From Tubulanus polymorphus (Eukaryota; Nemertea; Palaeonemertea; Tubulaniformes; Tubulanidae): a DNA stretch of 64,000 nucleotides. The translations under genes and the position numbers were made by a program. Location: the NCBI RefSeq assembly GCF_964204645.1, contig NC_134025.1, forward strand, positions 2,361,001-2,425,000. The letters are read 5' to 3'. The notes under the pieces are model-generated. The model had not been told where the DNA came from. It saw only the letters and a program-made list of their open reading frames with translations, and did no database searches. Shown here one piece after another: positions 42,101 through 45,100 of the stretch. The stretch's first letter is position 1; each line of letters starts with the position of its first letter.

Positions 42101-45100
42101 GCCTTTGAGACAATACGGTCTGCTATATCATGGCTCTGATATGCAATTTTATTATCGATTCCAAGTTCCAATTCCTGTAAATTGAGCGTTTGCGAGTAAA
42201 ATGTGCACCTGCTAATTTCCTTTTCATCATCATTTGGTTTGGGGAAATGTTTTTGTTCTACGCGCATATTGTGTTTCAAGCTCCTTTCTTCTCCTGTGAG
42301 GGCGGCTAGACATTCATTCCACTTATAGAAATAGTACTTTTTATTTGCTTCATTTTCATGTGCAATACAGCCTCAATAAACCTGACCATAATTCAGACAA
42401 TATTCATACGTAGCCACAGGTTATTTAGACTGTATAATTCAATTGATTTAGTTAATCAGTTATCAGGAATTCAGGATTTAAAAAATGAACAGTTTCATGA
42501 AAAAGTTAAAAACGGTTAAGTTTTGAATTCTTGTCCTCATTGAAAACTCTGAATAACCAAAAATATGAGTTTAACTTTTCCGTGGAGCTTGACCCAGGAC
42601 CGACTTCCACAGTTCCCCTCAAGGTTAAAACATCAATTTTTACTGCAATCAAACGTCTGCAACTGTGGGTCTCGGTCCTGCATTCCATCCATAAATATTG
42701 AAGGTTTTATGACTTTTACTCTGCGAGATTTATATATATATATAGAAAATTTTTAAAATGATGATTCAAATAATTACATGTACATTTAAAAGAATCATAA
42801 AACCTGATGCATTTATGAATTATTTGCTTTGGTCCGTCTGAGTGATCCGCGGAGGTAGCAGACTCTTGTTTCGTATGCCTTGATTTTGTTTTACCCTACA
42901 GCTGTGAAATCTATTAAGAAACAGCATTTGGTGGAAGTTCGAGCCCTCGGTAATCCACCTACTATCATAAAGGTGGCGTTGGAATCAATTTGTACATTAC
43001 TCGGCGAGCCTGACCTTGACTGGAAGGCTATGCGTAGTATAATAATGAAAGAGAACTTCATATCGACTATTGTCAACTTCTCTACTGATGACATTACGTA
43101 AGTTTTTTGGCAGCCACCAGTTGTTGCTCGCGGTTGATGTTGTTACATAGGGAAGATCGGTTCACCGGTGTATCCAATTTATATACAATAAACCCTGTTT
43201 AATCCGGATCAAAATCCATCTCTAACTGATTGGAATAAGATTGTATATTGGCGATCCTGAGGAATGTTGAAGTGAGATTGAATATTTTAGAGATCGTTTC
43301 ATACATAAATTGGAATATGCTCTGAACCTATGTTCCATGGGATGTATCCTCACCACAGCGCTGGTGCTGCCCTTTGTGGCTGTTAGTAATCATAGTTCAG
43401 TGTTATAACTCTTTCATTTTGTCAGCTGTGAAATCGATCAAGAGGCAACACTTAGTCGAGGTGAAATCTATGGGTAACCCACCCCCCGTGGTTAAACTCA
43501 CTATGGAGTCAATCTGTTTACTCCTCGGTGAGCCGGCCTCTGACTGGAAAACCATTCGTACCACTATCATGAAAGATAACTTCATCCCTACAATTGTCAA
43601 CTTCTCAACTGATGATATATCGTAAGTCTTCTATTGAACTTGGTGCACGAGACCAGCCACAGCAGCAGCAGCCGTAGCTTCCCCTCCCTGCATGATCATC
43701 GGGATGTGGACTACCGTACAATCAGCTTGCATTGTTAAACCAACCCCAGTTGGAAGTCATACAAAAAATATTACTCTCAAATTTTCTCTCCCTTTCAATT
43801 AGAATACAGTAGTATTTTCTAATTTTCTATCTAATCTGGAAAGTTTCAAGTTTCTCCTGGAGATGGGCCTCTATGCAGTTATATATCTGAATTCAGTTTA
43901 ATGTCCTATAGTTGAAGGAATAGCTTGTTACAATGTTGATTTGTGTAGTAGGTCTCTTTGCGTACGTATGCATTTCAATGTTGTTAGTTTAGTCAATTCT
44001 TTGGTGAGTAAATGAAGCATCTTCTAGGAAGCCATTTTGGAATTGCTTTTTTGCACATTTTGCCTATGATTTAGTTTAAGTTACATACATATATATATTA
44101 GTCTGATTTCCCCTTTATCCGGTATCCAATCAGTAGTGCATCAAGTAAATAGTAAGACTAATAAAAACTCTTCATTTATTCTATGATTATTGCATGCATT
44201 TTTTATGATGTTATTAGTAAACTGTGTCTATTTTTAATGTAGTAATTCGTTAATGATTTGTGCTGAGATAAATAATGTGTCATTGGAAAATATATATTAA
44301 AATCTTACGATGTGTCTAAAGAAAGTTCTTTAATCATGCATTTCAAAAAAATGTTCTGTCAATGTTTTCAGATGTTTTCACGTTTAACTTTTGATCAATT
44401 TCAGCGATGACATCCGTTCCAAAATGAAGACCAGATATTTGAGCAATCCGGATTATAACTTTGAGAAAGTAAACCGCGCTAGTTTAGCTTGCGGTCCGAT
44501 GGTGAAGTGGGCTATTGCACAGGTAATAGATTGGAAATTTTATTTCCAAAGAAAAATTGTTTTACTGTAGTTTGTAGTATTTAGATTGCCAGGATTTTAC
44601 GAGGCACTATTGTTTTTATACGTTCATAGATCAGTTACGCTGAAATGTTAAAGCGAGTCGAACCGTTAAGAAATGAATTATCGAGTCTGGAACGCGAAGC
44701 AGATGAGAATCGATTGAAAGGTGAAGAGTTAGAAAACTTGATCTCTGAGCTGGAAAAGAGCATTGCGAAATACAAAGAGGAATACGCCGTATTGATCAGT
44801 CAGGCTCAGGCTATTAAAGCTGATTTAGCATCTGTTGAAGGAAAGGTAAGAATTCGTTATTTCTTTAGATGATTTAAGAATGAATTGTAGTTTTCATCGA
44901 TAAGTGACCTACTTGTACATATGTGTAGGAGAAAAACCTTATGAAAGTTCAACGCCATTGCTATGAGCATTTTGGAAACAGAATTATGATTGATGTGTTT
45001 GTTTTGTAGGTTGAACGTAGTGTTGCGTTATTGAAAAGTCTCGGTAATGAGAAGGACAGATGGGAAGCTACTAGTGAAACGTTTAAGAATCAAATGTCTA

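Follow-up and report, generated by a model that had tools for sequence, protein, structure and literature searches.

Two tandem versions of a microtubule-binding exon in the dynein 1 heavy chain gene of Tubulanus polymorphus, a probable mutually exclusive pair

Introduction

Cytoplasmic dynein 1, the chief minus-end transport motor of the cell, is generally regarded as a single motor, its diversity coming from adaptors and smaller chains. Why, then, should the gene for its heavy chain carry two versions of an exon for the microtubule-binding domain (MTBD), the foot with which the motor holds its track? The question is raised by a stretch of 64,000 nucleotides from the palaeonemertean ribbon worm Tubulanus polymorphus (contig NC_134025.1, positions 2,361,001 to 2,425,000 of the forward strand; hereafter the window), in which the heavy chain gene holds two adjacent, homologous exons, A and B. 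We consider it highly probable, from the sequence evidence set out below, that they are tandemly duplicated, mutually exclusive exons of which each transcript would take one. The pair is real and probably has a functional role.

Results

Two interchangeable exons

Exons A and B (Table 1) are tandem homologues of 196 nt each, with the same phase, identical split codons and GT-AG borders. The initial annotation had described two adjacent exons of equal length with matching phases and good splice sites, and its coordinates and borders were verified. The donors read atg/GTAAGATT for the upstream exon, tac/GTAAGTTT for A and atc/GTAAGTCT for B (the slash marks the exon border), and the acceptors at the pair end in pyrimidine-rich tracts. 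Joining the upstream exon to either A or B, and this to the downstream exon, leaves an open frame. Inclusion of both exons had been predicted to break the frame; the computed spliced frame indeed runs into an early stop, as it does when neither is included.

The two exons share 46 of 66 residues and 137 of 196 nucleotides, and a repeat finder sees them as a single 208-nt family with 71% identity and a spacing of 524. Replacement sites of A and B are under purifying selection: the same residue is encoded in 45 of 64 codons, 23 of these 45 codons differ, silent sites are saturated (pS 0.81) while replacement sites are constrained (pN 0.157), and pN lay below pS in 1000/1000 codon bootstraps. With no stop in either exon, these values bear out the earlier claim of an old duplication whose copies are both still coding. 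The three introns around the pair give only short, weak matches to one another. That the pair is an assembly artefact or a recent tandem duplication we regard as next to impossible, as no supporting evidence for it was found and the DNA identity of the exons, their saturated silent sites and the unrelated introns all speak against it.

A full-length dynein 1 heavy chain gene

By its sequence matches, the locus is a full-length cytoplasmic dynein 1 heavy chain gene (DHC1/DYNC1H1) and not a dynein 2 or axonemal one. In a tblastn search with P0008, named 'cytoplasmic dynein 1 heavy chain 1-like isoform X2 [Tubulanus polymorphus]' and 4667 aa long, residues 1 to 4667 are all covered at the locus except for a gap of about 10 residues (3971-3979) at the E cut-off. 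The exon pair is matched best by mammalian dynein 1 chains (E 1e-54 to 1e-70), more weakly by other cytoplasmic dyneins (about 1e-27 to 1e-40) and by dynein 2 and axonemal chains at about 2e-16 or weaker.

At E 0.01, the A-B segment is the sole heavy-chain segment with a second copy in the window: P0008, which is 100% identical over exon A, matches there a second place, 43422-43622, at 69% identity, and this place is exon B. At E 10, the remaining extra rows are the sole places of their segments, except for two weak ones (E 0.48 and 7.1). The spliced MTBD coding sequence is non-contiguous in the window. A close paralogue elsewhere in the genome was also considered; none was found in the 267.8-Mb assembly, in which the next matches to the exon have 24-28% identity.

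The exon encodes most of the tubulin contacts

By alignment, the stretch of human DYNC1H1 that the exon corresponds to (Table 1) holds the H1 and H3 tubulin-contact residues. The exon had been described as the end of coiled coil 1 plus the first MTBD helices; the MTBD part of this description stands, but coiled coil 1 makes up the smaller part of the exon, which is mostly MTBD. By analogy with solved relatives, the MTBD fold can be taken as already fixed. Contacts were mapped by shared partners and spacing, assuming a gapless stretch and human residue numbers that differ by 2 from those of the mouse. In the yeast MTBD, salt bridges to tubulin are formed by six residues, three in H1, two in H3 and one in H6, according to PMC7042235. 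Five of these six residues map inside the exon (human 3301, 3306, 3308, 3336 and 3344), the mapping being anchored on mouse K3299, placed near beta-tubulin D427 in an excerpt of PMC6629372, and on mouse R3342, given as equivalent to a yeast H3 residue in PMC7042235. The latter also gives mouse 3334 as arginine, which disagrees slightly with the lysine found at the corresponding human site.

The five contact sites read K, E, R, K, K in A and R, E, K, K, K in B, such that charge is kept in both. The two exons are about equally close to the human one (A 47/66, B 48/66), and their 20 differences lie around the five sites. It had been proposed that these differences fall in the helix that contacts tubulin; they do lie in and around tubulin-facing helices, but the charge of the five contact residues themselves is unchanged. 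Since contact-site charge is kept in both copies, any functional difference between A and B would be one of tuning rather than of loss. Exon A has D in place of human T3332 and a changed residue at human I3338, both beside H3 contacts.

Second copies in other animals

Two region searches returned 221 and 171 proteins, of which 120 each were listed, giving 175 different proteins that were examined. Two clear tandem copies are present in six of these 175: Spodoptera exigua, Batillaria attramentaria, Asbolus verrucosus, Trichinella papuae, Trichuris suis and Coryphaenoides rupestris. By eye, in a subset of the 175, a full copy followed by a partial one was seen in the sea spider Nymphon striatum and in Trichinella spiralis, and a partial copy before a full one in Timema and Leptotrombidium. 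Thus, when the pair is sought in relatives, second copies are indeed found in predicted proteins of a mollusc, insects, a sea spider and Trichinella/Trichuris; the two-copy proteins come from automatic gene prediction, with two exons joined in one model, and hence speak for genomic copies, not for splicing. In Batillaria the first copy is nearer A (50 vs 44 identities) and the second nearer B (46 vs 41), giving the order A-like then B-like. In Trichinella and Trichuris (P0005, P0006) the first copy is ordinary, while the second has diverged strongly (40-47% to A or B). A one-residue insert in the FIN(S/T)(I/V)V(S/N)NF loop occurs in 9 of the 65 rows of the exon tree described below, all of them insects (P0001, P0003 and others), and the copy that bears it is the second one in Spodoptera and Asbolus.

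In 81 of 121 places in the 120 listed short proteins, a crude pattern suggests conserved exon borders: what comes before the exon does not resemble the neighbouring exon, and the sequence of the next exon does not follow. Such a result is in keeping with borders that are ancient and conserved. Seven of these 121 places have both Leu16 and Asp38, the A-type pair.

Second copies may also exist in fish. P0176, a 176-aa open frame on a 5510-nt contig that likeness to fish sequences suggests is from a fish, has the vertebrate-type exon at residue 4 and, at residue 108, another copy of it, which ends FISSIVSFSSEEM. In the C. rupestris protein (P0007), which is labelled low quality, the first copy is partly broken and the second is like that of P0176, and the second copies of the two group together in the exon tree (100/97). 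The earlier view that vertebrates have a single version is therefore doubtful, given that this low-quality prediction and the fish-like P0176 each hold a second copy; these are genomic copies, which do not imply use in transcripts.

The age of the pair

The exon tree was built from 65 hand-picked rows and 66 columns. Tubulanus A groups in it with exons of eight molluscs (88/81), which we take to be a chiton, bivalves, gastropods and an octopus, and the second copy of Batillaria groups with Haliotis and Lottia (100/95); Tubulanus B has no resolved placement. The insect type with the one-residue insert groups together (89/82), including the second copies of Spodoptera and Asbolus, while the first copy of Asbolus groups with four other insert-less insects and a copepod (89/86) and that of Spodoptera with a flea (92/75).

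Constrained trees were compared by twelve approximately unbiased (AU) tests, with p uncorrected. The sole one of the twelve below 0.05 makes the two Batillaria copies sisters (p 0.037). The other constraints gave 0.056 for the nemertean trio, 0.076 for protostome B, 0.276 for protostome A, 0.356 for lophotrochozoan B, 0.263 for the two copies of Spodoptera, 0.293 for those of Asbolus, 0.38 for insect A and B, 0.458 for insect A and 0.264 for the two vertebrate copies; the two that unite Tubulanus or lophotrochozoan A with B are taken up in the Discussion. Because of the A clade, the order of the copies in Batillaria and the AU results, the A-B pair most likely predates the nemertean-mollusc split.

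The AU tests neither establish nor reject a single origin of all pairs. It is possible that an exon prone to duplication, with ancient borders, was doubled separately in Lophotrochozoa, insects, Trichinella/Trichuris and fish, so that the pairs are convergent, an explanation towards which we lean slightly. The AU tests fail to reject insect A and B, the vertebrate copies or the Spodoptera copies as groups, in Lophotrochozoa it is the first copy that is more derived but in the two insects with both copies the insert-bearing second, and the borders look conserved by the crude pattern above. Moreover, tandem exon duplications are often convergent according to the part of PMC9741552 seen. On the other hand, a single protostome A clade is likewise not rejected, and 66 columns cannot decide the matter.

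Rows of the A clade share residues that set them apart from the others, at positions picked after the tree was seen (16, 38 and 44): Asp38 is present in 9/9 A-clade rows vs 0/50 other rows, and Leu16 in 9/9 vs 1/50, with Met16 in 49/50 of the others; residue 44 is Leu or Met in 8/9 A-clade rows and Ile in 49/50 other rows. These residues bear on whether the two versions are functionally equivalent, each being kept simply as the sole copy used in some tissue. Such equivalence, which we hold to be rather unlikely, would fit the retained charge of the five contact positions and the conservative nature of many A-B differences, but A-type residues common to a nemertean and eight molluscs suggest a lasting type-specific constraint.

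Other features of the locus

The gene and its features are collected in Table 1. A gap of about 12.7 kb (15129-27838) separates neighbouring dynein coding matches at residue 952, which suggests a very long intron. The stem-loop before A was found in one genome place only, and no repeat family was seen for it in a search that skips very common words.

Table 1. Positions of the dynein 1 heavy chain features, counted from the first nucleotide of the window.
Feature	Position	Strand	Basis
Cytoplasmic dynein 1 heavy chain coding region (introns included)	7530..54827	+	extent of P0008 tblastn matches
Constitutive exon upstream of the pair	41823..41976	+	P0008 match, splice borders
Stem-loop in the intron before A, 20-nt arms, 85% complementary	42595..42680	+	inverted-repeat search
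Alternative exon A, 196 nt, equivalent of human DYNC1H1 residues 3295-3360	42902..43097	+	in P0008 isoform X2
Intron between A and B, 328 nt	43098..43425	+	window sequence
Alternative exon B, 196 nt, 46/66 residues identical to A	43426..43621	+	homology to A, P0008 match
Constitutive exon downstream of the pair	44405..44522	+	P0008 match, splice borders

Discussion

Exclusion of one exon for lack of room or through incompatible splice sites is unlikely, since the A-B intron has 328 nt and all sites are GT-AG with ordinary GTAAG donors. The frame filter alone does not explain exclusion either. Perhaps the choice is regulated by cell type or stage, and nonsense-mediated decay would clear transcripts that include both exons or skip them. 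With one exon per transcript, two motors would result that are alike except in the H1-H2-H3 part of the MTBD, and they may differ modestly in binding strength, stepping or affinity switching. Since Asp38 and residue 44 lie beside H3 contacts, one guess is that isoform A would have a tuned, possibly weaker, high-affinity binding.

Several results weigh against this reading or against the age that we propose for the pair. No transcript evidence for B in Tubulanus came from a profile search of short proteins, in which, of 254 matches, the 120 listed reached at most 80% identity to B. The A-B intron shows no clear RNA pairing by which a choice would be imposed, and its fold has a z of -1.41, with 6 of 100 shuffles as good; a loose inverted repeat inside it (43111-43382) reaches about 64% over 81 nt. 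In the exon tree, support for the A clade is below the starred level, and Tubulanus A pairs with Mercenaria (97/86), which is unexpected from species kinship. Lastly, the AU tests do not reject Tubulanus A and B as sisters at 0.05 (p 0.072), nor lophotrochozoan A and B as one clade (p 0.173).

The first of these results, along with the use of A only by P0008 (isoform X2, whose cluster has 4 members), would be expected if B were a decaying or unused exon. We nevertheless consider this very improbable: B is open, has a good donor and acceptor, is no further from the human exon than A is, and is free of stops although its silent sites are saturated. Mutually exclusive use of two coding exons remains the reading that we prefer.

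Exon pairs in molluscs, insects, some worms and possibly fish raise the prospect that many animals splice the microtubule-binding foot of dynein. Whether splicing-controlled exchange of an MTBD cassette is widespread in Bilateria, teleosts included, by early bilaterian ancestry or by repeated evolution, is evenly balanced in our judgement. If it is, the supposedly single dynein 1 motor has two track-binding versions in many animals, and a conserved MTBD exon switch would be a splicing-controlled setting of track affinity or load response. A and B offer a natural pair of MTBD variants, long kept, for testing how the motor is tuned by H1 and H3. If fish do have a second exon, the switch could be tested in a vertebrate model, and the finding would bear on the reading of human DYNC1H1 variants, because the exon holds five of the six tubulin salt-bridge residues as mapped from the passages of PMC7042235.

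Several known systems resemble the Tubulanus pair. No earlier description of the wider animal spread or of the MTBD assignment of the exon was found in the literature searched, and the one case in that literature of mutually exclusive exons for a heavy chain of cytoplasmic dynein is that of Schistosoma. Alternative splicing of Dhc64C in fly embryos is mentioned in an excerpt of PMC5147784 that does not name the exon, and the passages seen of PMC3583065, PMC11215527, PMC10916854 and PMC13262244 hold nothing on the MTBD exon. Pillmann et al., 2011 (PMC3228551) used the Schistosoma mansoni DHC1 pair as a test case, and, given this printed case, the Tubulanus pair is less novel than the initial annotation implied. 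According to the section of that paper seen, the Schistosoma pair shares with ours the gene family and two homologous exons of equal length with codons split at both ends, and over 2000 aligned heavy chains led to the judgement that its exons are mutually exclusive; unlike the present account, that section names no domain, function or spread across animals. The two are probably the same exon; none of the matches listed for our two exon region searches is named Schistosoma. The tandem duplicated exon substitutions of human, fly and worm are likewise old tandem pairs, for which the part of PMC9741552 seen reports convergence between vertebrates, arthropods and nematodes; the word 'dynein' is absent from its main text. 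A further likeness is to an actin motor, in which tandem exons swap parts of the motor domain to tune the motor. That motor has several such exon clusters, whereas dynein 1 has here a single pair, placed in the track-binding domain of a microtubule motor.
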